Positions 4,271 through 62,233 of a stretch of 64,000 nucleotides of DNA are shown piece after piece; positions within the stretch are counted from its first letter, which is position 1, and the number at the start of each line of letters is the position of its first letter. The notes beneath the pieces were generated by a model. It was not told the origin of the DNA. It saw only the letters and a list, made by a program, of their open reading frames with translations, and did no database searches. A program made the translations under genes and the position numbers. The DNA comes from Pseudomonas sp. PDM16 (lineage in GTDB: Bacteria; Pseudomonadota; Gammaproteobacteria; Pseudomonadales; Pseudomonadaceae): positions 1,302,001 through 1,366,000 of the forward strand of contig NZ_JACVAM010000001.1 of NCBI RefSeq assembly GCF_014851865.1, in the 5' to 3' direction.

Positions 4271-4273
4271 GGC

Positions 4274-47179: not shown

Positions 47180-48094
47180 ATGCTGCGTCTCGATGATCTC
47201 TCCCTGTTCGTTAGAAGCGCCGAGCTGGGCAGCCTGTCGGCAGCAGCGCGCGAGCTGGACTGTTCGCCCGCAGTGGCCAGCGCCGCCCTCAAACGCCTTG
47301 AGGCCGAACTGCAGGTCCGCCTGTTGCTGCGCTCCACCCGAAGTCTGCGGCTGACGGCCGAAGGCGAGCAGTACCTGAGCCATGCCCGCGCTGCGCTGGC
47401 GAGCCTGGAGGTCGGCCGTCATCAGCTGGAGGGCGCCCGAGCAGAGATCAGTGGGATGATGCAAATCGCCGCGCCTTCAGATTTCGGCCGCAACGTCCTC
47501 CTGCCCTGGCTCGACCATTTCCAGACGGAGCGTCCGCAGATGAGCCTGCGGCTACTGCTGAGCGACCGCAACGCCGATCTGTTTCGCCAGCAGGTCGACA
47601 TCGCCCTGCGTTACGGCGAGCCGGAAGACTCGAGCCTCGTCGCCTTGCCGGTGGCGGCGGGCAATCGTCGGGTCCTGTGCGCCGCGCCGAGCTATTTCAC
47701 CCGGCATGGCAGGCCGCGCCAGCCGGAGGAACTGCTGGGTCACAACTGCCTGCTCTACATGCTCGGGGGGCGGGTACATGATCGCTGGAGCCTGGGGCAG
47801 GGCAAGCGGGCCCTGGCGCTGACGGTTTCCGGTGATCGGGTCAGCGATGATGCAGACGTGGTTCGTCGCTGGGCGGTGGCGGGGCGCGGGCTGGTGTACA
47901 AGTCGTGGCTGGATGTGGCCGACGATGTGCAAGCCGGCCGGTTGGAAGTGGCTCTGGCCGATTGGGAGGGCGAGCCGGCGCCGTTGAATCTGATCTGTGC
48001 CCATCGCGATCAGCTCAGCGGTCCGGTCCGTCTGTTGCGCGAGTTCCTGCAGGAGCGCTGCGCCGGGCTGTTGGCCCGGGCGCCTTGGCAATGA
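47180..48094 (+). CDS. LysR-family transcriptional regulator
   Basis: A 304-residue LysR regulator with the N-terminal winged helix (LDDLSLFVRSAELGSLSAAARELDCSPAVASAALKRLE) and a periplasmic-binding-like co-inducer domain. It is divergent from the oxidoreductase gene, with a 144-nt shared region (47036-47179) that probably holds both promoters and the binding site; no clear T-N11-A palindrome stands out by eye. It most likely controls the reductase in response to a small molecule. The inducer is unknown. Confidence 0.87.
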   Translation: MLRLDDLSLFVRSAELGSLSAAARELDCSPAVASAALKRLEAELQVRLLLRSTRSLRLTAEGEQYLSHARAALASLEVGRHQLEGARAEISGMMQIAAPSDFGRNVLLPWLDHFQTERPQMSLRLLLSDRNADLFRQQVDIALRYGEPEDSSLVALPVAAGNRRVLCAAPSYFTRHGRPRQPEELLGHNCLLYMLGGRVHDRWSLGQGKRALALTVSGDRVSDDADVVRRWAVAGRGLVYKSWLDVADDVQAGRLEVALADWEGEPAPLNLICAHRDQLSGPVRLLREFLQERCAGLLARAPWQ

Positions 48095-48112
48095 GCGGCG
48101 CCCGGAATCGGC

Positions 48113-48766
48113 TCAGTTGCTCTGCGGCGGAGTGAGGCCGCAACCCTTGAGAATGATGCGTTCCAGATTGCTGGCGGCCAGCTCGAAGTCGGTCTTCTTC
48201 AGGCCGTTCTTGCCAGTGAACATACAGATCTGGCTGGCGAAGTCGGCATAGTGCTGGGTGCTGCCCCAGAGCAGGAAGATCAGGTGCACCGGGTCGATGG
48301 GCTCCATCTTGCCTGCGTCGATCCAGGCCTGGAACACCGCAGCGCGCTGGCGGAACCACTCGCGGTAGTCCTGGTTGTAGTGGGCGGTCAGGTGCTGGCC
48401 GCCGCTGATCACTTCCATGGCGAAGATGCGCGAGGCCAGTGGCTGGGTGCGCGAGTATTCGATCTTGGCGCGAATGTAGCGACTCAGCGCCAGTGCCGGG
48501 TCATCGTCGACGTTGAGACTGTTGAAGGTGCTGTCCCACTGATCGAGGATGTTGTTCAGCACTGCGATATACAGCCCCTGCTTGCTGCTGAAGTAATAGT
48601 GCAGATTGGCCTTGGGCAGCCCCACCGCCTGGGCGATGCTGTTCATGCTGGTGCCTTTATAGCCGTGGCGAGCGAACTCCACTTCCGCGGCGGCGATGAT
48701 GGCTTTTTCGTTCTTCTGGCGGATGCGGCCGGCGGGCTTGCCGGTGCCGGGAGCGGCTGCTGACAT
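48113..48766 (-). CDS. TetR-family regulator, RutR-like
   Basis: A 217-residue TetR regulator with the helix-turn-helix SMNSIAQAVGLPKANLHYYFSSKQGLYIAVL and a C-terminal TetR_C_13/RutR domain (IDPVHLIFLLWGSTQHYADFASQI), very like RutR. RutR senses uracil and thymine and controls pyrimidine breakdown. The neighbours fit: the next genes catabolise beta-alanine, an end product of pyrimidine degradation. I use the ATG at 48766 (MSAAAPGTG); the ATG at 48817 is in frame but gives extra N-terminal residues. The 242 nt between this gene and bauR (48767-49008) are AT-rich and presumably hold its promoter. Confidence 0.75.
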   Translation of the reverse strand: MSAAAPGTGKPAGRIRQKNEKAIIAAAEVEFARHGYKGTSMNSIAQAVGLPKANLHYYFSSKQGLYIAVLNNILDQWDSTFNSLNVDDDPALALSRYIRAKIEYSRTQPLASRIFAMEVISGGQHLTAHYNQDYREWFRQRAAVFQAWIDAGKMEPIDPVHLIFLLWGSTQHYADFASQICMFTGKNGLKKTDFELAASNLERIILKGCGLTPPQSN

Positions 48767-49008
48767 CGGGAGGGGTCCGTACTGATAATCGGTTTTGAGT
48801 GCGAACTGATACCCCACGGCGGGTCACTAAACAACCCTCCTGCGTCAAAAACGTGTGTTATTCAGACGAAGAAGCGGTTTTGAGCGAATTTTGCCCAGAA
48901 AAGCGCCATTAAAATGTCTTTTCAGTCAGCTTTTGTCATGTTGCATGAATGGCGGAACCTTAGTGGTACGGGCGTTCCAGCATGACTGGCCAGTCCGGAG
49001 GCGGATGC

Positions 49009-49929
49009 TCAGCCAGTCTTGGCCAGCGCCTCCAGGAAGGTCTCCAGTACCAGTTGCGGACGTCGCCCCTTGCGTGTCACCGACGCCAGGGTCAGGTCAT
49101 AGAAGCGGCTGTCTGGCTTGAGCACGCGCAGGCGCCCCTGCTGTACCCATTGGCGGGCGTAGTGATCCGCCAGGTAGCCGATGTAGCGCCCGGTGAGGAT
49201 GAGGAAGGCCATGCCCTCGCGGTCCGAGGCGCTGGCCGTGCAGTTGAGCACCTGGTACTGGCTCTGGATTTCCGGGGGCAGGCGAAAGGTCGGGGCGATA
49301 GCGTCCTGGGCATTCAGGCGAGTGTCGGAGAGCTGATCGTCATCCACATAGAAGAGGGGATGGCCCACCGCGCAGTACAGCTGCGAGCGCTCGCCATATA
49401 AAGGTTGGTACTCCAGGCCGGACAGCGCATGGCTCTGCGGCACCACGCCGACATGCAGGCTGCCGTCGAGCACGCCCTGTTCCACCTCCGAAGGTGGCGT
49501 CATGCGGATCTGGATGCGCACCTCCGGGCCCAGCTCCTTGAGCCGCGCCAGCGCATGGGTGATGCGCATGTGCGGCACGGTCACCAGGTTGTCGGTCAGG
49601 CCGATGTGCAGCTCGCCGCGCAACTCGCGGTGCAGGCCGTTGACCCCGTTGCGGAAGCTCTCCAGCGCGCCGAACAGCTGCAGCGACGACTGATAGACCT
49701 CGCGGCCTTCTTCGGTCAGGGCAAAGCCGGCGCGGCCGCGCTGACACAGGCGCAGGCCCAGACGCTGCTCCAGATCGCTCATCTGCTGGCTGATGGCCGA
49801 GCGGCCGATGCCCAGCACGCTCTCGGCGGCAGAGAAGCCGCCACACTCGACCACGCTGCGAAACAGCCGCAGCAGGCGGATCTCGAAGTCGCTGACCTGG
49901 GCCAGAGGGTCGGAACGGCGGCTGCTCAT
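49009..49929 (-). CDS. bauR: LysR-type regulator of beta-alanine catabolism (BauR)
   Basis: A 306-residue LysR regulator, divergent from the beta-alanine transaminase gene exactly as P. aeruginosa BauR is from bauA. The winged helix reads FEIRLLRLFRSVVECGGFSAAESVLGIGRSAISQQMSDLEQRL and the C-terminal effector domain contains the usual two-lobe pattern. It probably activates bauA and bauC in response to beta-alanine. Start ATG at 49929 is clear. The intergenic region to bauA is 109 nt and presumably holds both promoters. Confidence 0.85.
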   Translation of the reverse strand: MSSRRSDPLAQVSDFEIRLLRLFRSVVECGGFSAAESVLGIGRSAISQQMSDLEQRLGLRLCQRGRAGFALTEEGREVYQSSLQLFGALESFRNGVNGLHRELRGELHIGLTDNLVTVPHMRITHALARLKELGPEVRIQIRMTPPSEVEQGVLDGSLHVGVVPQSHALSGLEYQPLYGERSQLYCAVGHPLFYVDDDQLSDTRLNAQDAIAPTFRLPPEIQSQYQVLNCTASASDREGMAFLILTGRYIGYLADHYARQWVQQGRLRVLKPDSRFYDLTLASVTRKGRRPQLVLETFLEALAKTG

Positions 49930-50038
49930 ATGTTTAGTCTTGGCTGAACTTAAAGTGAGAAGATTTGGATTTTCGTGACTTTATGCCCGTGGCACCTTGC
50001 ATGGCAACAAGACCCGAGTGCCGCTCTGGAGAGCCACG

Positions 50039-51385
50039 ATGAACATGCCGCAGTCCGCCACCCCGTCCCTAGCCAGCCAGCTCAAGCTGGATGCCCACTG
50101 GATGCCCTTCTCCGCTAACCGCAACTTCAAGCGCGACCCGCGCCTGATCGTCGCCGCCGAAGGCAACATCCTCATCGACGACCAGGGCCGCCGCGTGTTC
50201 GACAGCCTCTCCGGCCTGTGGACCTGCGGCGCCGGCCACAGCCGCAAGGAAATCCAGGAAGCCGTGGCCAAGCAGCTCGGCACCCTCGACTACTCGCCGG
50301 GCTTCCAGTACGGCCACGCGCTGTCCTTCAAGCTGGCCGAGAAGATCGCCGACCTGCTGCCGGGCGAGCTCAATCACGTGTTCTTCACCGGCTCCGGCTC
50401 CGAGTGCGCCGACACCGCGGTGAAGATGGCCAAGGCCTACTGGCGCCTGAAAGGCCAACCAGCCAAGACCAAGTTCATCGGTCGCGCCCGTGGTTACCAC
50501 GGCGTGAACATCGCCGGCACCGCCCTGGGCGGCATCGGTGGCAACCGCAAGATGTACGGTCAACTGATGGACGCCGACCACCTGCCGCACACCCTGCAGC
50601 CGGGCATGGCGTTCACCAAGGGCATGGCCGAGACCGGCGGCGTGGAGCTGGCCAACGAGCTGCTCAAGCTGATCGAACTGCACGATGCCTCCAACATCGC
50701 CGCCGTCATCGTCGAGCCGCTGTCCGGTTCCGCCGGCGCGCTGATTCCGCCGAAGGGCTACCTGGAGCGCCTGCGCGAGATCTGCACCCAGCACAACATC
50801 CTGCTGATCTTCGACGAAGTGATCACCGGCTTCGGCCGCATGGGCAAGTGGAGCGGTGCGGAATACTTCGGCGTCACCCCGGACATCCTCAACGCCGCCA
50901 AGCAGATCACCAACGGTGCCATCCCGCTGGGCGCGGTCGTGGCCTCCAAGGAGATCTACGACACCTTCATGCATCAGGCCATCCCTGAGCACATGATCGA
51001 GTTCACCCACGGCTACACCTACTCGGCCCACCCGGTTGCCTGTGCCGCCGGCCTGGCCACCCTGGAGCTGCTGGAGAAGGAAAATCTGATCCAGCAGTCC
51101 GCTGACCTCGCGCCGCACTTCGAGAACGTCCTGCACGGCCTCAAGGGCAGCAAGCACGTCATCGACATCCGCAACTGCGGCCTGGTCGGTGCCCTGCAAC
51201 TGGCCCCGCGTGACGGCGACCCGACCATCCGTCCGTTCGAGGCCGGCATGGCCCTGTGGAAGGCGGGCTTCTACGTGCGCTTCGGTGGCGACACCCTGCA
51301 GTTCGGGCCGACCTTCAACACCAAGCCGGAAGAGCTGGACCGCCTGTTCAACGCCGTTGGCGACGTGCTGAACAAGCTCGACTGA
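50039..51385 (+). CDS. bauA: beta-alanine:pyruvate aminotransferase BauA
   Basis: Class III PLP-dependent aminotransferase of 448 residues that converts beta-alanine and pyruvate to malonate semialdehyde and alanine. The N-terminal LRDAHWMPF-like segment (LDAHWMPFSANRNFKRDPR), the class III core (FTGSGSECADTAVKMAKAYW), the DEVITGFGRMG region and the PLP lysine in NAAKQITNGAIPLG are typical. I chose ATG 50039 (MNMPQSATP), behind GGAGAGCC, because it aligns with P. aeruginosa BauA; a longer frame from 49997 is open but unlikely. It is divergent from bauR and followed by bauC. Confidence 0.93.
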   Translation: MNMPQSATPSLASQLKLDAHWMPFSANRNFKRDPRLIVAAEGNILIDDQGRRVFDSLSGLWTCGAGHSRKEIQEAVAKQLGTLDYSPGFQYGHALSFKLAEKIADLLPGELNHVFFTGSGSECADTAVKMAKAYWRLKGQPAKTKFIGRARGYHGVNIAGTALGGIGGNRKMYGQLMDADHLPHTLQPGMAFTKGMAETGGVELANELLKLIELHDASNIAAVIVEPLSGSAGALIPPKGYLERLREICTQHNILLIFDEVITGFGRMGKWSGAEYFGVTPDILNAAKQITNGAIPLGAVVASKEIYDTFMHQAIPEHMIEFTHGYTYSAHPVACAAGLATLELLEKENLIQQSADLAPHFENVLHGLKGSKHVIDIRNCGLVGALQLAPRDGDPTIRPFEAGMALWKAGFYVRFGGDTLQFGPTFNTKPEELDRLFNAVGDVLNKLD

Positions 51386-51432
51386 CAGGCAACTTCCTTC
51401 CCCTCTCCCTGTGGGAGAGGGAGCTTGATCGA

Positions 51433-51513
51433 GTAGGGTGGATGCCGCGGTTCGCATCCACCAGACCGGCAACCCCAATTTGCGGTGGATGAACAAGGCG
51501 TCATCCACCCTAC
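51433..51513. repeat. palindromic repeat between bauA and bauC
   Basis: An 81-bp element bounded by 12-bp inverted repeats GTAGGGTGGATG and CATCCACCCTAC, with two inner hairpins built from the same GGTGGATG/CATCCACC blocks. A related shorter element lies at 56528-56580. It sits within the bau operon, so transcripts of bauC would carry it upstream; a further C/T-G/A hairpin lies just before it. Such elements are short interspersed palindromes of pseudomonads, not genes. Confidence 0.7.
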
Positions 51514-51535
51514 GTGATACCAACGAGGAGTTTTC

Positions 51536-53032
51536 ATGAGCACCGTCGCCCACTTCATCAATGGCGAAATCGTTCTGCGCAATGGCCGTACCGCCCAGGT
51601 CTTCAACCCGTCCATCGGCGAGCCGGTGCGTCAGGTCGAGCTGGCCGACCGCGCTACCATTCAGGCTGCCATCGACGCCGCCAAGGCCGCCTTCCCGGCC
51701 TGGCGCAACACCCCGCCGGCCAAGCGCGCCCAGGTCATGTTCCGCTTCAAGGTCCTGCTCGAAGAGAACAAGGACAAGATCGCCGCGATGATCAGCGAAG
51801 AGCATGGCAAGACTCTCGAAGACGCCGTCGGCGAACTCCAGCGTGGCATCGAGAACGTCGAGTACGCCTGTGGCGCTCCCGAGCTGCTGAAGGGCGAATA
51901 CAACCGCAACGCCGGCCCGAACATCGACAGCTGGAGCGACTTCCAGCCGCTGGGCGTGGTCGCCGGTATCACCCCGTTCAACTTCCCGGCCATGGTGCCG
52001 CTGTGGATGTACCCGTTGGCCATCGCCTGCGGCAACTGCTTCATCCTCAAGCCGTCCGAGCGCGACCCGAGCTCCACCCTGTTCATCGCCCAGCTGCTGC
52101 ACGAAGCCGGCCTGCCCAAGGGCGTGATCGGCGTGATCAACGGCGACAAGGAAGCGGTGGACGCGCTGATCGAAGCGCCGGAAGTCAAAGCCATCAGCTT
52201 CGTCGGCTCCACGCCGATCGCGGAATACATCTACACCGAGGCCAACAAGCGCGGTAAGCGCGTACAGGCCCTGGGCGGCGCCAAGAACCACGCCGTGGTG
52301 CTGCCGGACGCCGACATCGACAACACCGTCAACGCCCTGATGGGCGCGGCGTATGGCTCCTGCGGCGAGCGCTGCATGGCCATCTCCGTGGTGGTGGCCG
52401 TGGGTGACCAGGTTGCCGATACCCTGGTGGCCAAGCTGACCCCGAAGATCACTGCTCTGAAGATCGGTGCCGGCACCTCCTGTGGCCTGGACATGGGGCC
52501 GCTGGTCACCGGCGCGGCGCGTGACAAGGTCAAGGGCTACATCGACGCCGGCGTGGCGCAAGGCGCCAAGCTGGTGGTCGACGGCCGCGGCATCTCGGTC
52601 GCAGGCAACGAGGCAGGCTTCTTCGTCGGCGGCACCCTGTTCGACCACGTCACCCGCGACATGAGCATCTACCAGGAAGAGATCTTCGGCCCGGTGCTGT
52701 GCATCGTCCGCGTCGGCAGCCTGGAAGACGCCATGCAGCTGATCAACGATCACGAATACGGCAACGGCACCTGCATCTTCACCCGCGACGGTGAGGCCGC
52801 ACGCCTGTTCTGCGACGAGATCGAAGTCGGCATGGTCGGCGTCAACGTACCTCTGCCGGTGCCGGTGGCCTACCACAGCTTCGGCGGCTGGAAGCGCTCG
52901 CTGTTCGGCGACCTGCACGCCTACGGCCCGGACGGCGTGCGCTTCTACACCAAGCGCAAGACCATCACCCAGCGCTGGCCGCAGCGCGCCAGCCACGAGG
53001 CGGCGCAGTTCGCCTTCCCGAGCAACAGCTGA
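51536..53032 (+). CDS. bauC: malonate/methylmalonate-semialdehyde dehydrogenase BauC
   Basis: A 498-residue CoA-acylating aldehyde dehydrogenase of the MmsA/BauC family that converts malonate semialdehyde to acetyl-CoA, the step after BauA. Family features are the active-site cysteine in [17 protein letters not shown], the NAD-binding [29 protein letters not shown], and [32 protein letters not shown]. The start ATG 51536 has GAGGAG upstream. The 150-nt gap from bauA holds a palindromic repeat. Assignment to bauC rather than valine-pathway mmsA rests on its place beside bauA. Confidence 0.9.
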
Positions 53033-53042
53033 TGTAACCCGA

Positions 53043-53069
53043 GGGCCGGTCGCAAGACCGGCCCTTTTT
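53043..53069 (+). terminator. terminator of the bau genes
   Basis: Nine-bp stem GGGCCGGTC / GACCGGCCC with a GCAA loop followed by TTTTT, 10 nt after the bauC stop. Confidence 0.9.
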
Positions 53070-53109
53070 GTTCTGTTTTACGCAGTAAACCAGCCGCGCG
53101 GGCGCGGCG

Positions 53110-53215
53110 TTGGTGCAGTAACTCGCAGGCGTCCTGCCGGCGGGAAACGGCACCCCTTGGGTGAGCGGGTTCACGGTTATTGTGACCCGGTAGCCCGCTG
53201 TCCCAAGGGCAGCCC
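53110..53215. repeat. strongly structured intergenic region, possible RNA
   Basis: Within the 357-nt gap after bauC, nested inverted repeats are conspicuous: CCTTGGG (53155-53161) with CCCAAGG (53202-53208), AGCGGG (53164-53169) with CCCGCT (53194-53199), and TCAC with GTGA at the tip. GCAGG/CCTGC and other GC-rich short arms precede it. It could be a small RNA or an mRNA leader, on either strand; no promoter or T-run was recognised. Confidence 0.35.
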
Positions 53216-53249
53216 ACTTCAATTAAACAGAACCGACATAGGGTTGAGC

Positions 53250-53345
53250 GAGCTAGAGAAGAACAAGGCAGAAACGGCTGAGGACGCGGAGTTTACGTGT
53301 TGTAAATGAGCAGTCCGAAGCCGCTTCTAACGCAGTTTTTCCGAC
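53250..53345. repeat. short interspersed repeat with inverted arms
   Basis: The arms AGAAACGGCT (53270-53279) and AGCCGCTTCT (53319-53328) and an inner TTTAC/GTAAA pair form a symmetrical element just ahead of the amidotransferase gene. The core GTTTACGTGTTGTAAATGAGC-like stretch resembles a repeat I associate with many pseudomonad intergenic regions. Confidence 0.45.
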
Positions 53346-53389
53346 GCGCAGCCGACCCTAATAGGTTCTCAGAAGAGGACACCCTTGCA

Positions 53390-54169
53390 ATGACTAAACC
53401 CATGATTGGCCTTCCCCTGTGCCGCTGGCAACTGACTGACCGCGACATCGGCTGGTTTCATCTGGTGGGCGAGAAATACATTCAGTCCGTCACCGGCTTC
53501 GGCGCCTTCCCGCTGATGATCCCGGCCTTCGGCGACGACCTGGACATGGAGACCGTGCTCGACAGCGTCTCCGGCATCATGTTCGGCGGCTCCCTGTCCA
53601 ACGTGCACCCCAGCTTCTACGGTGACGACCATCCCGGCCTTGGCCTGGCCGACAAACCCCGCGACGCCACCGTGCTGCGCCTGATGCGCGCCTGTATCGA
53701 CCGCGGCATTCCCTTCCTCGGCATCTGCCGCGGCGTGCAGGAACTCAACGTGCTGTACGGCGGCACCCTGCACCGCGAAGTACACAACGTGCCGGGCCGC
53801 CTCGATCACCGCGAGGTGAAGGACGTACCGGACAACGTGGCCTACGGCCCGATCCACGGCGTGACCCTCACTGAAGGCGGTGTGCTGCACCAACTGCTTG
53901 GCGAACGTGAACTGCGCGTCAACTCCCTGCACGGCCAGGGCATCGACCGCCTCGGCGAAGGGCTACAGGTGGAGGCGGTGGCCGAGGACGGGCAGATTGA
54001 GGCGGTCAGTGTGATTGGCGCCAAAGCGTTTGCCGTGGGGGTGCAGTGGCACCCGGAGTATCGCTATTGGGAGAAGGACGATTACAACGCGCTGATTGGG
54101 GCGTTTCATGAGGCGGCGAGGGAGTATCAGAAGACTAAGATCACCGGGCGGCCGGAGTTGGTAGCCTGA
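53390..54169 (+). CDS. gamma-glutamyl-gamma-aminobutyrate hydrolase-like amidotransferase
   Basis: A 259-residue class I glutamine amidotransferase-type hydrolase of the PuuD/SpuA family, which cleaves gamma-glutamyl-GABA in polyamine breakdown. The nucleophile cysteine is in LGICRGVQELN near residue 115, and the histidine and glutamate in VGVQWHPEYRY. I start at ATG 53390 (MTKPMIGLPL) since earlier in-frame ATGs would add foreign residues. It follows the bau genes, so it may extend the beta-alanine/GABA pathway, though its own promoter is likely in the 320-nt gap. Confidence 0.88.
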   Translation: MTKPMIGLPLCRWQLTDRDIGWFHLVGEKYIQSVTGFGAFPLMIPAFGDDLDMETVLDSVSGIMFGGSLSNVHPSFYGDDHPGLGLADKPRDATVLRLMRACIDRGIPFLGICRGVQELNVLYGGTLHREVHNVPGRLDHREVKDVPDNVAYGPIHGVTLTEGGVLHQLLGERELRVNSLHGQGIDRLGEGLQVEAVAEDGQIEAVSVIGAKAFAVGVQWHPEYRYWEKDDYNALIGAFHEAAREYQKTKITGRPELVA

Positions 54170-54180
54170 TGTATCGTGTA

Positions 54181-54209
54181 AGGCCCGCTTTTTTGGCGGG
54201 CCTTTTTTT
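54181..54209 (+). terminator. terminator of the amidotransferase gene
   Basis: Eight-bp stem AGGCCCGC / GCGGGCCT followed by TTTTTT. It ends exactly where the AT-rich deaminase gene stops on the other strand. Confidence 0.88.
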
Positions 54210-56049
54210 AAGCTTGAAGTTCGGCTAGTTGATTTTTCAATCGCTCAAGCTCCTCGCGGAGCTCTGTGTTTTCTTTTTCTAGTATCTTTGTTCTGGCAGC
54301 TTTTTTGTTTGCGTTGCCCGGTATTGATAGTAGTGTTTCGAGCTCGTCTTTGTAAGGCATTATTGGCTGGTAAAGTTGATGATAGGCTCTGCCAACAGCT
54401 CCCCTGTAAAGCTGCAGTTCTGGGCTTTGGCTTCCCACTAAAAGCGTGTGTTTAGTGGCAATTCCTGGGTATGGATCAATGTATATGATTTTGCTGATGC
54501 CAAGCTGGTAGGCTTTCTTTGAGCAAAGCTCGCAGGGGCTAGCTGTGGTGAAAAGAATTCCATTCCGTAGCTTCATCCCACCGTGCTTTGCAATTTGAAG
54601 AAACGCATTCTCTTCTGCATGTAGGGAGCGCGTATGTACCTGGTTCTTCTCGCCGTCAATTTCGTTTTGTAAGTCTTTAAAGCAAAATGATAAATTTCGA
54701 CCATTCAGTAGATTTGATTTTCTTAAATCATTAAATTTTCCGTGCAGCGTTTCTCTGAATTTACTGTCGTTCCTTTCGTACTCACTATATGCGTATGTAT
54801 CCTGCCCGAGCAGTAAGTCTTCAGCGTTTCTGAGCAGGCATGGCACTTGCCCTTGTGGTGTGTTATTCCATCCGACGGACTTGACGGAATATTCTTCGTC
54901 AGTTACGGCTGCACCAACCTGCCTTGATATACAGCCAGAGCTTTGCTTGACCGTATAGGCAATTTGCATACAGCTTTCTAGTGACGTGGGCATAACCAGG
55001 CCTGGATGTTGTATCAAGGAAACATACCAGGCGAGCTGACATTTAAGCTCAACGTTGTTGAATTGCTCTTTTCTGGGGTTGTGTACATGTATGTCGGATA
55101 TTTCAATGCACTTCTGTATGTTTTGAGAGATAAATTTGTTGTATCCGATAAGTTTGTTTGGATATTCCTTTTCGTCCAGCTCTTTTATTTGGGATTCGGA
55201 GAACTTGTGTGTGCTGCGAAGATGTGTGAGCCTATTTTCGTTTTCTGTATTTATTGATACTAAGTAAAATCCGGCATATCGCTCTTTGAAGAATATTGCT
55301 TCGTATGGATTTCTGATGGCATCTATAACTATGAAGCATGATTCATTGTTTTTTCTGGCAGTATGGTGTGCTGCTTTTATTATTTTGTTTATGGTTCGTG
55401 GGAAATGGAAGACTTTTGAGTCGTCAAATTTTGAGCTATTGGCATGGCCGGACGCTCTAATATTGTCTCCGGCTCGCTGATAGATTTTTGTATATGCGTC
55501 AAGAGACAATTTTTTAAGAGTGTCTCGTATTTTGTTTGAGAAGATCGGCAATCTATTGAAGTAAAGGGCGAAGGCGAAGTCTTGTTTTTCTTCTATTTCT
55601 TTGAGTGTGGTTTCTGGGCTATTAAGATATTTTGATATTTCTATGTGAAATTTGTCGTATTCCTCTTTGATTTCTTTCATGGTCTCGGATACGACAGGTA
55701 TTTCTCGATCTATTACATCTGAAATGAAGCGGCAAAACTCTGGAAAATTCAGTGTGAGGATGTATCTTGTTATCACGGTTCTTACTTGCAGGCATTTGAA
55801 TGGCTGCCACCGATTCCCAATAAATTTTTTGATTATGCGATGCTTTCTAAGCTCATTTTTTGTTATTCCTGCGTAGGCGTTCTCTGGTAGTTCAATAGAC
55901 GCTCCGCAAAGAATTTCTGCTGAAGTAGAGCAGCCGGAACCCGTTCTTCCTGTCAAGCCAATGACGACAAATCTTTTATTCTCTTTATAAACGCTTTCAA
56001 TTGCTCTCGATGATGGATTTCCTGAGAGCTCTGGCATGTTGTTTTCCAT
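54208..56049 (-). CDS. AvcD-like dCTP/dCMP deaminase with N-terminal P-loop domain (anti-phage)
   Basis: A 613-residue two-domain protein. The N-terminal part has a P-loop GLTGRTGSGCSTS at about 31-43 and resembles a nucleoside-kinase-like domain. The C-terminal part is a deoxycytidylate-type deaminase with the zinc-site His477-Ala-Glu479 in HAEENAFLQI and PCELC (Cys506, Cys509). This is the architecture of AvcD/dCTP deaminase defence proteins, which deplete dCTP/dCMP on phage infection. The last 36 residues form a charged leucine-rich coiled coil. The gene is markedly AT-rich compared with all neighbours, so it was probably acquired. The start could be M1 or M5 (56037), which has a GGA at a better distance. 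Confidence 0.85.
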   Translation of the reverse strand: MENNMPELSGNPSSRAIESVYKENKRFVVIGLTGRTGSGCSTSAEILCGASIELPENAYAGITKNELRKHRIIKKFIGNRWQPFKCLQVRTVITRYILTLNFPEFCRFISDVIDREIPVVSETMKEIKEEYDKFHIEISKYLNSPETTLKEIEEKQDFAFALYFNRLPIFSNKIRDTLKKLSLDAYTKIYQRAGDNIRASGHANSSKFDDSKVFHFPRTINKIIKAAHHTARKNNESCFIVIDAIRNPYEAIFFKERYAGFYLVSINTENENRLTHLRSTHKFSESQIKELDEKEYPNKLIGYNKFISQNIQKCIEISDIHVHNPRKEQFNNVELKCQLAWYVSLIQHPGLVMPTSLESCMQIAYTVKQSSGCISRQVGAAVTDEEYSVKSVGWNNTPQGQVPCLLRNAEDLLLGQDTYAYSEYERNDSKFRETLHGKFNDLRKSNLLNGRNLSFCFKDLQNEIDGEKNQVHTRSLHAEENAFLQIAKHGGMKLRNGILFTTASPCELCSKKAYQLGISKIIYIDPYPGIATKHTLLVGSQSPELQLYRGAVGRAYHQLYQPIMPYKDELETLLSIPGNANKKAARTKILEKENTELREELERLKNQLAELQA

Positions 56050-56141
56050 TTATTTATTACCAGTTTTTTTGAGTTGATTGTCGCGAGTGAGAGGTTTTTT
56101 GCAGCTATGTGTAGCGCCTTGGCAATGCTTTTCGCCTTTCC
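56050..56141 (-). other. AT-rich leader upstream of the deaminase gene, possible antitoxin RNA
   Basis: In Vibrio cholerae a small RNA, AvcI, encoded just 5' of avcD, keeps the deaminase inactive. Here the same position holds a short AT-rich tract with homopolymer runs (CAAAAAAAC, GCAAAAAACC on the minus strand) before the repeats begin. I see no promoter or terminator that proves an RNA; the assignment is purely by position. Confidence 0.25.
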
Positions 56142-56354
56142 GGCGAGTCACTTTCTCTTTGCTTGTGCAAAGAGAAAGTAACCAAAGAGAAAGCACACCC
56201 GACATCCGGGTCTCGCTGCGCGAGACTTCCTTCGTTCCATCATTATTGCTCCAGGGGCCCGCCGCGAAGGGCCATCCCTGGCCCATCGCGGCTCTCGCGG
56301 CATCCATGCCGCTCAACCCCTTACGCAACGATTCCACTCAGCCTCCTGACGGGA
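56142..56354. repeat. long repeat copy A (inverted relative to copy B)
   Basis: About 213 nt beginning GGCGAGTCACTTTCTC and passing through CATCCGGGTCTCGCTGCGC and CATCCATGCCGCT; a related copy runs on the opposite strand at 56641-56874. Together they bracket shorter palindromes in a 1.1-kb gene-free stretch between the deaminase and GNAT genes. Confidence 0.7.
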
Positions 56355-56425
56355 CTCGGTCCCGGCCCTACCTGTTGGCGCAAGGGCGGCAGTGTGGTGT
56401 TGGCGTTTGAGTTCGTTTTACCGAT

Positions 56426-56522
56426 GGTTCCCACGCTCTGCGTGGGAACCCCTCCTGGGACGCTCTGCGTCCCGCAGACGCGGAGCGTCTGTGGATGCAT
56501 GCCCACGCGGAGCGTGGGAACG
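56426..56522. repeat. cluster of GC-rich palindromes
   Basis: Consecutive hairpins: GGTTCCCACGCTCTGCGTGG-type (56426-56450), GGGACGCTCTGCGTCCC (56457-56473), AGACGCGGAGCGTCT (about 56476-56490) and CCCACGCGGAGCGTGGG (56502-56518). They share a CGCTCTGCG/CGCGGAGCG core and look like short interspersed palindromes. Confidence 0.75.
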
Positions 56523-56527
56523 ATCGA

Positions 56528-56580
56528 GTAGGGCGGGTGAAACCCGCATGGATCGGCTGCGCGGGTTGCATCCGCCCTAC
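56528..56580. repeat. palindromic repeat, second copy of the GTAGGG family
   Basis: A 53-bp element bounded by GTAGGGCGGGTG and CATCCGCCCTAC with an inner AACCCGC / GCGGGTT hairpin. The preceding GATCGA matches the flank of the element in the bau operon (51433-51513), so both belong to one family. Confidence 0.7.
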
Positions 56581-56640
56581 GGCGAGGCATACCGGCAGCT
56601 CCGAGCGGCTTGAAACTCAAAACCTGCATGCGCGCAAACT

Positions 56641-56874
56641 CCCCGTCAGCAGGCCGAGCGGAGGTGTTGCGTAGGGGGACGAGCCGCATGGATGCGGCGA
56701 GAGGACTAGGCGTCCCAGCATAAAGGGCCATGGAGGGTCCTTGTAAGCCGGCCCCCGGAGCGGCACCGGAGGGAGGGAAGTCGAGCGCAGCGAGACCCGG
56801 ATGCCGGGGTGTGTTTCTTTGCTTACTCTTCTTTGCACCGGGCGGCGATCCGCAAGCAAAGAAAGTAAGTCGCC
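56641..56874. repeat. long repeat copy B (inverted relative to copy A)
   Basis: On the minus strand from 56874 it reads GGCGACTTACTTTCTTTGC, then CATCCGGGTCTCGCTGCGC and later CGCATCCATGCGGCTC, following copy A with point differences and small indels. The two copies lie in opposite orientation. Confidence 0.7.
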
Positions 56875-57151
56875 CAGCAGGGCGAAACCATGGCGCCAGG
56901 CACCTTCAACAATGAGCGAGCGCACCGCATGGGGCGGCACCAGAGCAGTCCATTGGCGAGGAATCGTGGCAGCGAAGGCCATGAATGCATCCTTGCAGTT
57001 CGATGCCCCGACCATACTTCGAATGCTGGCCCAACGCCATAGTCTCTGGCTTGGTCAATTTGTCGCGACATTCACTCGACGACCACAGCCGGAAAATCCA
57101 GGCATGATGCCGCGCTGGTTTCTCTTGCCGCGCACAGACCAAGGACTCCCC

Positions 57152-57610
57152 ATGCCCACGCTCGACTGGCTCCGCAACCACCCCCAACACTGCGCACAAC
57201 TGGGCGAGTGGCTCTACCGCCAATTCCCCTACGAGTTCACCGAACAGCCGCTGGCCGACTGGCAGGCCGAGTTCGCTGCCGGGCAACACAATGGCGAGTG
57301 GGACATGCTGATCGCCCAGGAAGACGGCGAGCTGCTCGGGAGTGCCGGGCTGGCACGGGATGACCTGCCGCAACGCCCCGAGCTGGGGCCCTGGCTGGCC
57401 TGTGTGTACGTGCGCCCGGAGGCACGTGGCCAGGGCCTGGCCGAACAGTTGATCGAGGCGATCTGCACCACCGTCGGGGAGCGTGGCCACGCGCGACTCT
57501 ACCTGCACACCCATGACCGCGCCGACTATTACGCCAGGCGCGGCTGGACGTTGCTGGAGCGGTTTGAAAGCTGGGGTGCGCCGCAGCACCTGATGGTGCG
57601 TGAGCTGTAG
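57152..57610 (+). CDS. GNAT-family acetyltransferase
   Basis: A 152-residue GCN5-related acetyltransferase. The acetyl-CoA binding motif ACVYVRPEARGQGLAEQLIEAI and the C-terminal RLYLHTHDRADYYARRGWTLLER, with the conserved aromatic, are typical of small amino-group acetyltransferases. The ATG at 57152 (MPTLDWLRNHP) gives a normal family N-terminus; the much longer open frame upstream runs through the repeat region and is not coding. It is a lone gene after the gene-free stretch. Substrate unknown. Confidence 0.82.
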   Translation: MPTLDWLRNHPQHCAQLGEWLYRQFPYEFTEQPLADWQAEFAAGQHNGEWDMLIAQEDGELLGSAGLARDDLPQRPELGPWLACVYVRPEARGQGLAEQLIEAICTTVGERGHARLYLHTHDRADYYARRGWTLLERFESWGAPQHLMVREL

Positions 57611-57825
57611 GGCCGCTGCCCTGGCAGGCCGAGCGACTTGTGGTGAGACGCTGCTATGCCTCTACCGCTCGTTGGTCGCTACGGGCCGAGGCCCTGTAGC
57701 GGGCTGCCGGCCACTAGGGCGCCCATAGGCCGCCGCTAGGCTCGACCATTCACCGTGACGCTGATGGCAGCCAAACCTCGCCGATCAGCGCTACAACTCG
57801 CTATCTCCGGATTCGAGGAATGCCA

Positions 57826-58263
57826 ATGCAGGCCCCCAGTCAGAAACGCCTGTTCCAACTCTCCAGCCTGGTCGCTCTCGGTGGCTGGGGCGTTCTCATC
57901 TTCCTGCCGGGATGGGCACAGGGGCCCGGCGTGGTGCTGGGCGTGGCGGTGTTGCTGCTCTGCGTGCTCTACGGCATCAGCCTGTACCTGGCCATGACCA
58001 GCCGCGGCGAGCGCAGCATGGGCAAGCCGGGCTTCTTCACCCTGCGAGGGGTGCTGGCACTGTTCAGCAACCCGAAGGCAGTGCTGGCGGGATGGATTCA
58101 TATCCTGGCGTTCGACCTGCTGGCCGGTCTGTACATCCAGCAGCAGGGCGTGGCCCAAGGCATCGGCCACCTCTGGCTGGTGCCGTGCTACCTGCTGGCG
58201 CTGATGTTCGGCCCGCTGGGCGTGCTGCTGTTTCTTCTGATCGGTTTCCTGCACAGGCTCTGA
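57826..58263 (+). CDS. ABA4-like (DUF4281) membrane protein
   Basis: A 145-residue polytopic membrane protein with about four hydrophobic segments. The motif WIHILAFDLLAGLYIQQQG followed by LWLVPCYLLALMFGPLGVLLFLL matches the DUF4281/ABA4-like family. In plants ABA4 is needed for neoxanthin synthesis, but the bacterial role is unknown. I favour ATG 57826, with GAGG 7 nt upstream, over ATG 57820. The 215-nt gap before it shows nothing I can name. Confidence 0.78.
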   Translation: MQAPSQKRLFQLSSLVALGGWGVLIFLPGWAQGPGVVLGVAVLLLCVLYGISLYLAMTSRGERSMGKPGFFTLRGVLALFSNPKAVLAGWIHILAFDLLAGLYIQQQGVAQGIGHLWLVPCYLLALMFGPLGVLLFLLIGFLHRL

Positions 58264-58338
58264 GCCGCCGTGGCGAATCCGGCCGCCGCTGTTGGGCGCC
58301 ACCCTCGATCACCTTCGCTATCGCATCCGCGATGCGGG

Positions 58339-58707
58339 TTAGCGCAGGCTCAGCACGCTGCGCTCCGGCTTTTCCGGGTCGTAGTACACCTTTACTTTCT
58401 TCCGCGCCGGATACTGGGCCAACTCGTTCTTGGCGGTTCCCTCCGTGCGGTATCGATTCGGGCGGATGCGTAGGCGGTTACTGCTGTAGTGGGTTCCGTT
58501 CGCTGAGTACGAATACAGGACGCGCACCTCATGCACCTGATCACGGCCGCCGAATTTGGTCGAGGTTTCGAGGGTGCTGAAGATGTGGGATTCGATGATG
58601 ACCCCCTGGGTAGTGGGCCAGTCCCTCGAGTCGTCCATCTCCATCGCCTGCTGGATGCCGAAATACATCACCACGGCGAAGACCGCCGCATACAGCAGGT
58701 ACTTCAT
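58339..58707 (-). CDS. DUF3592-like small membrane protein
   Basis: A 122-residue protein with one N-terminal membrane segment (MKYLLYAAVFAVVMYFGIQ) and a small beta-rich domain of about 95 residues (WPTTQGVIIES, VRVLYSYSANGTHYSSNRLR, YPARKKVKVYYDPEKPERSVL) typical of DUF3592. It converges on the DUF4281 gene. I use ATG 58707, which starts the membrane segment; a longer start at 58770 is possible but adds a polar lead. The role is unknown; DUF3592 proteins occur in many bacteria. Confidence 0.72.
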   Translation of the reverse strand: MKYLLYAAVFAVVMYFGIQQAMEMDDSRDWPTTQGVIIESHIFSTLETSTKFGGRDQVHEVRVLYSYSANGTHYSSNRLRIRPNRYRTEGTAKNELAQYPARKKVKVYYDPEKPERSVLSLR

Positions 58708-58927
58708 TGGTTGTGCCACAACAGAAGCAGAGGGGGCATGGTTTCCATCCTTGGATCGGGCGCGACGCATCGGGACGGCGAAGCTAACTCAGTGCTCGGG
58801 CACGGCACAAGGCTGTAGTGCACGATGCCTATGGGCTGAATTTACCGAGGCTCTTTCCCTATACTCAGGCTTTATGGCCCATGGCCACTGCCTGGGCCGT
58901 TGAGGCCCGCCGCCAGGATCACGAGCA

Positions 58928-60745
58928 ATGTTGTGGATTCGCTGTCTGCTGTGCCTGTTGATGCTTTCCGTCCCCGGAGCCTCGTTGCTCGCGGCGTCCG
59001 TTGTACTGGGGCCAGGCAGCAGCGGCCAGGGCCTGAATGGCCAGGTCGATCTGCTGGAGGACCCTTCCGGAAAGCTGGGTATCGCGGACTTGCAGCGCGC
59101 GGATGTGCAGGCCGGTTTCCGTCCGGCCGATGGGCGCGAGAGCGCCGGGCGCTCCCCCAGTGCCTGGTGGCTGCGCGTCACTCTGCAGAAGGGGACCGAC
59201 GCACCTGCGCGCTGGTGGCTGGAGCTGGGCGGCATGCTGGTGCTCGATGCACGGTTGTATCTGCCGGACGGCCAGGATGGCTGGATCGAGCGGGTCAGTG
59301 GCGAGCGTGTGCCGTTCGCCGAGGGGCGTGACTATCCGTATCGGCGCGGCCTGTTCGAGTTGCCGGAGCTGGGTGACCAGCCGCTGACGATCTATGTGCG
59401 CAGCTACGATCCGGCGGGCAATCTCTTCCCCCTGCGCATCTGGCAGCTCGGCGACCTGCAGTTGATGAGCGGTGAGGAGAACTTCACCTACGGCCTGATC
59501 TACGGCGTGGTGCTGGCGCTGCTGCTGTACAACCTGTTCATCCTCTTCAGCCTGCGCGACCGGGCTTACTTCTGGTACGTGCTGACCACGGGTTGTTCGC
59601 TGCTGATGATGCTGGCCATGTCCGGGCATGCGCAGCAGTACCTCTGGCCGAATATCGCCACGCCGGTCTGGCTGGATCGCATGACGATGCCGTCGCTGTG
59701 GAGCGTGTTGCTGATGCGCTTCACCATTGCCCTGCTGTCGCGCCCCGGTGGTTCGCCCTGGCCGACGCGGGTGCTCAACGTGGTGTGTGGGCTGTACGGC
59801 GTCGCCATCCTGATCAATGCCCTGGGCATGCGCCATGAGGCGTCTCTGCTGATTGCCCTGCTGCCGGTACTGACCATGCCGATCGCACTGGGCTGGGCGG
59901 CCTTGCGTAGCTGGCAGGGCTTCGTGCCGGCGCGCTTTTACCTGATCGGTTACGGCTTCGTGCTGGTCAGTGCGGTGATTCTGCTGTTGCGTGCCGGCGG
60001 GGTGATTCCTCCGCTGCCACTGATCGGCTACTTCTTCCCTCTGGCCGTATCGCTGGAGGCCATCCTGTTCTCCTTTGCCCTGGCCTATCGCATCCAGATG
60101 CTGCGCCAGGAGAAGGCCGTGGCGTTGCGACTTGCCGACCGCGAGAAGAGTGCGCGCCTGGAGCAGATACAGCGCAGCGCCGAGGAGTTGCAGGGCGCGG
60201 TGGAGCTGCGTACTGCCGAGCTCGCGGACGCCAACCGCCAGCTGCAGCATGCGGCCTTCCATGATTCGCTGACCGAGCTGCCGAACCGTCGCTACCTGCT
60301 GGAGCGCCTGGATGCGGCGATGGCGGACAGCCTTCGGCGTGGCGAATCGCTGGCTCTGCTGTTGCTGGACCTGGATCACTTCAAGCCGATCAACGACCAG
60401 CATGGGCACGATGCTGGCGATTTCGTCCTGCGCGCGCTGGGGCAACGCCTGCAGGCGCACCTGCGGCGCGGGGATTTCGCGGCGCGCCTGGGCGGGGACG
60501 AGTTCGCCGTGCTGGTGACGGGGCCGGGGGTGAAGAGCGAGCTGCCGCAGATCGTGGAGCGCCTGCTGCAGGCGCTGAACCAACCGGTGGAATATGGCGG
60601 TGTGTCGCTGCTGGTGGGCGTGAGCATCGGCACGGCCCGTTTCCCGGACGATGCCGACCAGCTGACCGAGTTGTACAAGGCCGCCGATTCGGCTTTGTAC
60701 CAGGCCAAGCAGCTGGGGCGCGGCACATACGTGATCATGCAGTAG
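58928..60745 (+). CDS. diguanylate cyclase with 7TMR-DISM sensor
   Basis: A 605-residue membrane diguanylate cyclase. An N-terminal signal and periplasmic 7TMR-DISMED2 carbohydrate-binding-like domain (about 25-175) precede seven hydrophobic segments (about 185-390), a coiled linker rich in Glu/Gln/Arg (about 395-440), and a GGDEF domain with intact ARLGGDEFAVLV and a preceding RRGD inhibitory site. It should be active. Such sensors respond to extracellular or periplasmic sugars or other ligands. Its start at ATG 58928 is the first of the frame. It is a single gene. Confidence 0.9.
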   Translation: MLWIRCLLCLLMLSVPGASLLAASVVLGPGSSGQGLNGQVDLLEDPSGKLGIADLQRADVQAGFRPADGRESAGRSPSAWWLRVTLQKGTDAPARWWLELGGMLVLDARLYLPDGQDGWIERVSGERVPFAEGRDYPYRRGLFELPELGDQPLTIYVRSYDPAGNLFPLRIWQLGDLQLMSGEENFTYGLIYGVVLALLLYNLFILFSLRDRAYFWYVLTTGCSLLMMLAMSGHAQQYLWPNIATPVWLDRMTMPSLWSVLLMRFTIALLSRPGGSPWPTRVLNVVCGLYGVAILINALGMRHEASLLIALLPVLTMPIALGWAALRSWQGFVPARFYLIGYGFVLVSAVILLLRAGGVIPPLPLIGYFFPLAVSLEAILFSFALAYRIQMLRQEKAVALRLADREKSARLEQIQRSAEELQGAVELRTAELADANRQLQHAAFHDSLTELPNRRYLLERLDAAMADSLRRGESLALLLLDLDHFKPINDQHGHDAGDFVLRALGQRLQAHLRRGDFAARLGGDEFAVLVTGPGVKSELPQIVERLLQALNQPVEYGGVSLLVGVSIGTARFPDDADQLTELYKAADSALYQAKQLGRGTYVIMQ

Positions 60746-60798
60746 CGATAGAAGGCGCGTCTCCGAATGAAGAAGCCCCGCATCAGCGGGGCTTCGAC

Positions 60799-61146
60799 TT
60801 ACCAGCGATAGTCATGGTGACGGTGGCGCGGGTGATGCCGCCAGGGCTTGTGGCGCGGCGGCGGTGCCGGCACGTAGTACACCGGGCCAGGGGTGTAGTA
60901 GACGGGCGGCGGCTGGTAGTAGACGGGACGGGGTTGGTAGTAGACCACCTGCGGCGGCGGAGCCTGGTAGACCGGAGCGGGCTCGTAGGCGCGGCCGGGG
61001 CGCTGGCTGGCCAGTACGCCGCCGATGATGGCACCGACCGCGACACCCGCGGCCACATCGCCGCCGTCCGCTGCTTGTGCCTGCTGCTCGCCGACCAGCG
61101 CGAGGCTGGCGATCAGGCCGGTGATGAGGGGGATGCGCGAAAGCAT
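60799..61146 (-). CDS. secreted glycine-zipper protein with Pro/Tyr/His-rich tail
   Basis: A 115-residue exported protein: signal peptide (MLSRIPLITGLIASLALVGEQQAQA), a short glycine zipper (GVAVGAIIGGVLA), then repeats of VYYQPxP/VYYTPGP, and a histidine/arginine tail (HKPWRHHPRHRHHDYRW). The repeats look like those of small cell-envelope proteins, and the His-rich end could bind metals. The start is ATG 61146 behind AGGAG; a longer frame upstream is not supported. No family name is given. Confidence 0.75.
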   Translation of the reverse strand: MLSRIPLITGLIASLALVGEQQAQAADGGDVAAGVAVGAIIGGVLASQRPGRAYEPAPVYQAPPPQVVYYQPRPVYYQPPPVYYTPGPVYYVPAPPPRHKPWRHHPRHRHHDYRW

Positions 61147-61309
61147 GGTCGAGACTCCTGTGGGGGAACCGGTTCTCCGGTCAATGTCTTCGACTGCCAG
61201 GCGAGACGGGCATTTCAAGGGGCAGTGTAAAACCTGTGTAAACGCGTGACCGTGTGTCCGATTGACGTCTGTGTTAGGTTGCGCCCCCGCCAATTCAAGG
61301 AGTGAAAAC

Positions 61310-62233
61310 ATGGCTCGTCTTAGCCGCCTGTCCACCGCCATTCTGCTCGGCCTCTGCGTATCCGCCTGGGTGCCTGTGAGCCAGGCCTATGACAGGATTC
61401 AGCCGCCGGTGAATCGAGCCGCGCAGTCGTTGCCTGACATGCGCGGCCAGGCACATGTGGGCAACCTGGCGGCTTCGGCGCGGACCTCGCCGGCGCTGGA
61501 GGCGTCGCTGCGCGACTACGCACAGCTGGCTCGGCGCGGCGAGCAGATCCGCCGACTAGACGAGGTGGTGAGTGCCTGGGCGGCCACCGCGACCTACCAG
61601 CCCTCGACTCAACTGCTGGCCGAACGCGCGGGTGTCTCCTATCGGCAGGGCCAGGCCGATGATGAGAAGGCGCTCGCTGCCCGCGAGATCGTGCACCGTA
61701 TCGAGGTGCTGGAGGCCTTCACCGGCAAGTCGTTCTTCTCGTTCGTGTCCAGCGAGCCCCGTGCCGATGGTGGGCAGGTGCTCAACTACAAGGCAGGTGC
61801 CATCTCGCAGCGTATCGAACTGGCACCGGGTGAGGCATTGCAGGATGTGCAGCTGGTCATTTCGCCCAACCAGCGGCGGCTGCTGGACAACTCCTACTAT
61901 GCGCTGACCGGTTCGCTGTATTGGGGCACTCTGCTTCAGGCGCGCCTGGAGCCCTATCTGCGGACCATCGACATGTCGATACCGTCGTCCGGGAAGCTGG
62001 ACACCCGCGGCATGGTGGCGGCGTTCGAGAAGCAGGCCCAGGTCGATCCGGTCAAGGCACTGGGTGACCTGCAGGATCTGCTGGCGGTGGCGCCCAAATC
62101 GTTCACCGACGGTACGGGCCTGGTCGAGCTGCGTGATCGGCTGGCAACCGAGGTGCCGGTCGAACATACCGACGACTATGTCGCCGATTTCGGGCCGGAC
62201 GTCAGTAAGCTGATTCCGCGCAGCAAGTCCTGA
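61310..62233 (+). CDS. exported standalone copy of a domain found in giant adhesin/RTX-type proteins
   Basis: A 307-residue exported protein with a signal peptide (LSTAILLGLCVSAWVPVSQAY). Its main part has a pattern I associate with repeated segments of very large pseudomonad adhesin or RTX-like proteins: LDEVVSAWAAT, VLEAFTGKSFFSF, LLDNSYYALTGSLYWGTLLQARLEPYL, and KALGDLQDLL. Those domains usually occur once inside a multi-thousand-residue chain; here one is free-standing and secreted. Start ATG 61310 has a strong AAGGAG. Function unknown; the family link is by recall and should be checked. Confidence 0.6.
   Translation: MARLSRLSTAILLGLCVSAWVPVSQAYDRIQPPVNRAAQSLPDMRGQAHVGNLAASARTSPALEASLRDYAQLARRGEQIRRLDEVVSAWAATATYQPSTQLLAERAGVSYRQGQADDEKALAAREIVHRIEVLEAFTGKSFFSFVSSEPRADGGQVLNYKAGAISQRIELAPGEALQDVQLVISPNQRRLLDNSYYALTGSLYWGTLLQARLEPYLRTIDMSIPSSGKLDTRGMVAAFEKQAQVDPVKALGDLQDLLAVAPKSFTDGTGLVELRDRLATEVPVEHTDDYVADFGPDVSKLIPRSKS

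Follow-up and report, generated by a model that had tools for sequence, protein, structure and literature searches.

A small cargo slot bounded by puuD and a palindromic repeat in Pseudomonas, probably occupied at present by an AvcD-type anti-phage dCTP deaminase gene

Introduction

AvcD is a deaminase that acts on both dCTP and dCMP and is inhibited by a labile RNA, AvcI; when phage cause transcription to arrest, AvcI is lost, the deoxycytidine (dC) pool falls and phage yield drops (PMC10511110). AvcI and AvcD make up the type III toxin-antitoxin system AvcID, reported in V. parahaemolyticus (PMC10511110) and V. cholerae (PMC9455884). In P. aeruginosa, a dCTP deaminase has been reported in cDHS2, one of two places (cDHS1 and cDHS2, with medians of 26 kb and 6 kb) that lie beside tRNA or ssrA and hold exchangeable defence cargo between fixed flanking core genes (PMC10250203). 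A third described element that bears on the present locus is the TwoAYGGAY RNA (RF01731), which has a core of two hairpins; its published description lists it as a probable RNA that is neither cis-regulatory nor a riboswitch (PMC2864571), whereas Rfam types it as cis-regulatory.

Here we describe a gene of Pseudomonas sp. PDM16 that lies in a 64,000-nucleotide stretch of chromosomal sequence, the whole of which we refer to as the window. Its product resembles the anti-phage dCTP deaminases, and thus the toxin part of AvcID, in a nearly whole-length profile match, an N-terminal P-loop-like motif and C-terminal HAE and PCxxC motifs. Unlike the AvcID loci, the gene has only about 80 nt of leader of its own before a dispersed repeat begins, and an Rfam scan of 54100-57200 gave no antitoxin family. 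The place of the gene recalls cDHS1 and cDHS2 in its fixed core flanks and exchangeable cargo, but the slots described here measure 0.1-2.7 kb (1.0-2.2 kb at puuD), mostly hold one gene and adjoin a palindromic repeat. In turn, the arms of this repeat match TwoAYGGAY only in part, the match lying within a longer, covarying arm that occurs in inverted pairs and in several copies. Genomic-island hotspots (PMC12629846) are of another type than these slots; the main text of that report contains no word beginning "palindrom" and does not use the term "inverted repeat". In a literature search that left most subscription journals outside its reach, we found no account of palindrome-bounded single-gene defence slots.

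Results

An AT-rich gene next to puuD very probably encodes an AvcD-type deaminase

The gene, hereafter avcD, is an intact open reading frame of 613 codons, from its ATG start through its stop, and is single-copy in its own genome (Table 1). A sequence-only reading had described it as a transferred, AT-rich one-gene island, and its composition bears out the contrast with its surroundings: its GC content is 41.3% overall and 42% at third codon positions, compared with 63-66% and 80-91% in five in-frame neighbour genes. Similarly, ATA makes up 52% of its Ile codons and AGA/AGG 59% of its Arg codons, and in a 1-kb GC profile the two kilobases that cover most of the gene (54001-56000) have values of 0.474 and 0.384, against 0.574-0.697 in the 62 others. 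As had been proposed, a terminator-like hairpin bounds the gene on one side and long inverted repeats bound it on the other; a hairpin was seen by eye at the equivalent place in most of the relatives inspected. No transposase or integrase was found, either by eye among the ORFs listed for 48000-62000 or in a Pfam scan of four proteins (that of avcD and those of its surroundings), in agreement with the earlier statement that no mobilisation gene is seen. The convergent neighbour, which belongs to the Peptidase_C26 family, scored 183 bits against the NCBIfam gamma-glutamyl-GABA hydrolase model, below the cut-off of 266, and is called puuD-like here.

Table 1. Positions of the avcD gene and of the features that surround it in the window.
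Feature	Coordinates	Strand	Remarks
puuD-like core gene, Peptidase_C26 family	53306..54169	+	3' end forms one border of the slot
Terminator-like hairpin	54180..54204	+	between the convergent puuD and avcD genes
avcD-type anti-phage dCTP deaminase gene (very probable)	54208..56049	-	613 aa; ORF, profile searches, alignments
Short 5' leader of avcD	56050..56129	-	own sequence of only ~80 nt before the dispersed repeat
Cargo-proximal arm A of palindromic element	56130..56354		begins ~80 nt upstream of the avcD start codon
Rfam RF01731 TwoAYGGAY core match	56255..56319	-	42.0 bits; gathering score 43
Shorter palindrome between the arms	56422..56526		also matched in L071 and L073
Distal arm B	56641..56887		inverted copy of arm A
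GNAT acetyltransferase, core gene beyond the palindromic element	57152..57610	+	start picked by eye within ORF 56801-57610

PADLOC assigned the protein to one family, dCTPase PDLC02373 (E=3.8e-142), with a match that spans residues 15-606 and model positions 142-552 of 630. The NCBIfam model for anti-phage dCTP deaminase (NF041025) was matched over its full length (1-437) with 395.5 bits (E=2.9e-118), 4.5 bits under the curated cut-off of 400, which is a naming threshold and marks no biological feature. We counted this narrow miss against the AvcD assignment, so that it is PADLOC, together with the zinc residues and the alignment, that carries the name. The zinc domain of cytidine/dCMP deaminases (PF00383) was above its Pfam cut-off, and both the translation and the alignments place the zinc deaminase residues where they had been predicted: H477 and E479 in HAE at 477-479, and C506 and C509 in PCELC. 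None of H477, A478, E479, C506 and C509 varies between the window protein and its homologues from Pseudomonas ACN8, Vibrio, Pantoea and ETEC plasmid p58. The Pantoea and p58 proteins are annotated as anti-phage dCTP deaminases and are 46% and 23% identical to the window protein; the latter value was also counted against the AvcD assignment.

The predicted P-loop held up in part. The motif GLTGRTGSGCST is present at residues 31-42 and is conserved among homologues, but the Walker A lysine is absent: C40 stands in its place, as does a cysteine in all 18 aligned homologues, and no Pfam P-loop family reached its cut-off in this protein. At its other end, the window protein has a C-terminal tail that is missing from five aligned Pseudomonas copies of 47-50% identity. 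The AlphaFold model, made from seven sequences, is poor (mean pLDDT 60.6), so the assignment stands without structural confirmation. Together, the family profiles, which extend the case beyond the motifs, indicate that the gene product is very probably an AvcD-type anti-phage dCTP deaminase.

The space between puuD and the repeat holds different genes in different relatives

We compared 16 puuD loci: the window, seven first relatives and eight further loci. In the first seven relatives, homology through puuD ends 30-42 nt before the end of the stop codon and resumes in the repeat region, where L070, L071, L073 and L074 match arm A, L068 and L072 match the distal arm, and L069 matches parts only. 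Between puuD and the repeat, six of these seven carry other genes of 40-50% GC, and the seventh (L069, from G193) has a second puuD-like gene instead. Over the whole set, the repeat is present at 14 of the 16 loci, window included, at 1.0-2.2 kb from puuD; one of the two loci that lack it is on a 3.5-kb contig. An 800-bp stretch flanking the repeat falls below 50% GC in 11 of the 14. Cargo ORFs were listed for 12 of the 16 loci, and in every one of the 12 their reading direction is away from the repeat, a count that leaves out one 84-aa ORF of L100. By blastp, the cargo ORFs of this slot are unrelated to one another, with the exception of two KAP ATPases, those of L072 and L099. The one-gene island thus recurs, and across the 16 loci the same core genes flank different defence cargo in different genomes, as at a hotspot.

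The cargo-side arm of the window is 94-99% identical to those of L070, L071, L073 and L074, compared with 87-92% for puuD, and 85-89% identical to those of four more distant loci, compared with 82-87% for puuD. The distal arm of L071 is equally alike (96%), and at a second slot, beside nrdB, the arm is mostly less alike than nrdB. The raised identity of the cargo-side arm is as expected if exchange took place through the arm, but it is not general, as the distant loci and the nrdB slot show.

Half of the scanned cargo proteins match defence families

Cargo ORFs were taken from the 36 of 61 repeat elements that had a flank below 55% GC; the flank of one (L130) had no ORF. Four of the 44 ORFs were dropped as small or antisense (L096, L100, L103, L134), leaving 40. 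Thirty of these were given to PADLOC and the window's own was scanned separately; the scan left out nine, comprising second or short ORFs of L072, L096, L097 (two), L139 and L143 (two) and the ORFs of L131 and L146. Counting all slots, 15 of the 30 proteins had a PADLOC match at 1e-20 or better. At 1e-15 the count was 16 of 30, compared with one of 40 core ORFs from the same loci (Fisher P=8e-7; the 40 are part of 79 non-redundant ORFs), a comparison to be read with the caution that generic AAA ATPases match many PADLOC models. The 15 matches at 1e-20 were to PDC-M02A and PDC-M02B (both in L070, as two genes), PDC-S08 (a 5'-nucleotidase), PDC-S20 (in two copies, of which one is broken), PDC-S46, PDC-S06, Orf5/HEC-06 (GmrSD), a type IV REase (Mrr), HEC-04, PD_DExK, AriAB (twice), AriA/Old and a CBASS cyclase adjoining a Cap15 gene.

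When the 44 cargo ORFs were compared all against all, six related ORF pairs emerged, from four locus pairs. In 28 of 35 loci, no more than 150 nt separate the repeat from the first cargo ORF. Cargo at the nrdB slot reads towards the repeat in eight of nine loci; the ninth, L137, is not tied to the far flank. In one relative this slot is filled by a compact CBASS pair, consisting of cyclase and Cap15 effector (L139:5946-7654). We also observed that L103:3923-4888 (Mrr-type) and L214:4085-4963, which come from two genomes and have opposite orientations relative to the repeat, are alike in their first residues; the two proteins are perhaps the same cargo at different slots.

The repeat arms form a covarying structure

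The arms of the palindromic element are about 225 nt long, and between them lies the shorter palindrome of Table 1, which we take to be of the REP/REPIN type. The genome to which the window belongs (G000) has the repeat at six places, the five besides the window being L094-L098 on contigs C40, C22 and C3. Neighbours of these copies include an AAA ATPase at L094, a PDC-S46 protein at L095 and, at L097, AT-rich DNA that adjoins nrdB. On the minus strand of L097, at 4122-4607, a 161-aa ORF lies beside short palindromes like the one at 56422-56526; we presume that it resembles a REP-associated tyrosine transposase. By eye, a motif near GGAAAAnGGGACAGATTTATTTTC is found about 30-60 nt outside several arms (L073, L098, L130, L138, L139 and L146).

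From an alignment of 57 of the 86 full arms, a fold of 49 pairs was predicted, 29 of which keep their pairing through changes on both sides. Under this structure, pairing is kept in 97% of cells, and the arms reach a covariation score of 0.315, where shuffles give 0.130 and slid partners no more than 0.084, with the structure having been derived from the same sequences that were scored, which favours it. Further pair types show no excess (46, against 46.1 in shuffles). By these measures the repeat arms covary; an arm may act as RNA or in the form of folded single-stranded DNA. The TwoAYGGAY core was matched by the window arms and others at 39.8-45.6 bits, over model positions 45-113 only. A match was found in five of eight loci scanned by E-value, and one of 12 other loci (L117:5341-5406, 45.6 bits, again to a partial model) exceeded the gathering score. 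Among 229 genomes of the class, 14 contain matches, own genome included, and several of these hold many copies.

Cargo accompanies the repeat at a few places in one clade

In the first set, 28 of 61 elements had one 800-bp flank below 50% GC and none had two; about 2% of 205 control windows were that low. The 61 elements amount to repeated looks at few places, and counted by place such a flank occurs at seven of 18, and in the majority of species at four of 18. The places with an AT-rich flank are dominated by puuD (11 of 14 loci) and nrdB (9 of 9). A replication stated beforehand, on fresh loci of G122, G239 and G283, did not bear out the link and gave an AT-rich flank at one of 14 loci with both flanks, a count from which fragmented drafts may hide some, and at three of 21 when loci cut by contig ends were included. 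In five distant genomes with 24 TwoAYGGAY sites, inspection by eye found clearly AT-rich neighbouring DNA at two, both in G490 (two of eight) and none of them among the eight of G357; in G418, itself of 45% GC, one flank is 37-40% at four of five sites. With places, fresh loci and distant genomes giving these counts, we dropped the rule that each repeat copy has an adjoining defence gene. There are two strong and several weaker cargo slots beside the repeat, in one clade, and a causal role of the repeat in cargo exchange is a candidate only.

The strongest alternative is that repeats and cargo are unrelated and accumulate in the same neutral stretches that follow core genes. The 11 of 18 first-set places at which no species examined has a flank below 50% GC speak for such a coincidence, as do the fresh loci and the distant genomes, G418 among them; the seven of 18 places, set against the control windows, speak against it, together with the short distance from repeat to first cargo ORF and an orientation that is fixed per slot (12 of 12 at puuD, eight of nine at nrdB). 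On balance we give this alternative an even chance. The opposite proposal, which we put forward tentatively and consider rather doubtful, is that in one Pseudomonas clade a structured inverted-repeat element with TwoAYGGAY-type arms would act as a docking or exchange arm. Single defence genes (such as avcD, CBASS, PARIS-like AriAB, Mrr and GmrSD), which bring no mobile-element enzyme of their own, would replace one another, always in the same orientation, in the space that runs from the element to the 3' end of a core gene.

The repeat takes the place of the leader found in the closest relatives

The closest relatives, from ACN8, RIT623 and G144 (loci L031, L032 and L002), have in common a leader of about 190 nt, in which ACN8 is 71-75% identical to the others over 151-191 nt and in which an AvcI-like antitoxin could lie. 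We found no match to this leader in the window, where the foldable repeat arm occupies the place upstream of avcD at which it would be. With the relatives' leader missing, the control of the enzyme is unexplained, and we counted this against our main reading. By eye, the shared leader includes a stretch that is also found behind puuD in other species, and thus it need not be AvcI. An Rfam search over 54100-57200 returned no antitoxin family. The repeat itself was rejected as an avcD-specific AvcI antitoxin, because the same arm adjoins unrelated cargo at the same slot. Finally, a crude promoter scan of 54100-57000, tuned to sigma-70, gave two promoter-like sites, neither of them on the avcD strand.

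A second alternative is that avcD survives as a remnant, either unregulated or silent: when the repeat was joined to it, both the antitoxin RNA and the promoter would have been removed, and the protein would be unmade or independent of AvcI. The lost leader and the outcome of the promoter scan both point this way, but that scan is crude, the shared leader may not be an antitoxin at all, and the frame is intact and under strong purifying selection, although most of this selection predates the present junction. We consider a remnant unlikely.

The gene is patchily distributed, probably transferred, and maintained

Of the 298 genomes of the genus, 12, counting its own, carry long AvcD matches (at least 47% identity); 16 further genomes of the genus have a match of at most 30% identity, and a sample of 368 other genomes from the class yielded no match at E<=1e-60. 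Close named relatives include those of Pseudomonas sp. ACN8 (89-90%) and RIT623 (87%), and the G144 copy is 88% identical; the other Pseudomonas copies among the 12 genomes are at 47-57%. Copies from Cupriavidus, Marinobacterium and Vibrio are more alike than the latter, at 61-62%, and these, the patchy distribution and the base composition support the earlier claim of transfer. Upstream of the Vibrio intestinalis avcD gene, a sequence in L035 resembles by eye an integron attC site, and that copy may be a gene cassette.

Compared with its ACN8 homologue, avcD has a dN of 0.065 and a dS of 1.75 and is thus maintained under purifying selection; compared with RIT623, dN is 0.073, and dS could not be computed. 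We rejected carriage of avcD by a phage or virus, since none of the 665 matching phage records had a place that covers 80% of the AvcD query (the best place among the matches listed covers 60%) and a scan of viral contigs with six peptide patterns gave no AvcD relative. It is very improbable that avcD encodes a housekeeping or salvage dCMP deaminase and is AT-rich by chance, and this reading was rejected on profile scores: the zinc domain does align with dCMP deaminases, which are the nearest solved structures by sequence (PDB 1vq2, E=1.6e-11), and with phage genes, several of them annotated as dCMP deaminase, but the matched PDB proteins have 138-193 residues against the 613 of AvcD, the best matches are not confined to housekeeping enzymes (ComEB reaches 33.8 bits, against a cut-off of 219.45), the defence profile is matched over nearly the whole length, and the gene occurs in few genomes of its genus.

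Discussion

Taken jointly, our results make it quite likely that the gene was acquired horizontally, that it encodes an AvcD-type anti-phage dCTP deaminase and that it now fills a small cargo slot between puuD and the repeat. Under this reading, a phage that shuts down host transcription would trigger AvcD, whose C-terminal zinc deaminase domain would most likely turn dCTP and dCMP into dUTP and dUMP; the dC pool would then run out and phage replication would fail. Substrates, activation and defence are attributed here by analogy with published AvcD work in Vibrio and E. coli.

As for its place, avcD would be the current occupant of a slot bounded by the 3' end of puuD on one side and by a structured palindromic repeat on the other, where mostly other AT-rich genes, many of them defence-like, are found in related species. 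That these genes share the same slot and the same orientation fits homologous exchange through the conserved flanks, and the cargo may have been replaced by recombination of this kind.

The gene itself is one more dCTP deaminase, a diverged member that is useful for asking how the enzyme is restrained without the usual leader. The place matters more than the gene: puuD and nrdB mark small, mostly one-gene defence slots of high turnover. Because no strong PADLOC match was obtained for 15 of the 30 scanned occupants, these slots are a compact source of candidate anti-phage genes. If the repeat does take part in exchange, the movement of lone defence genes in the absence of transposases would have an explanation, and an RNA motif to which no function has been assigned would gain a role.
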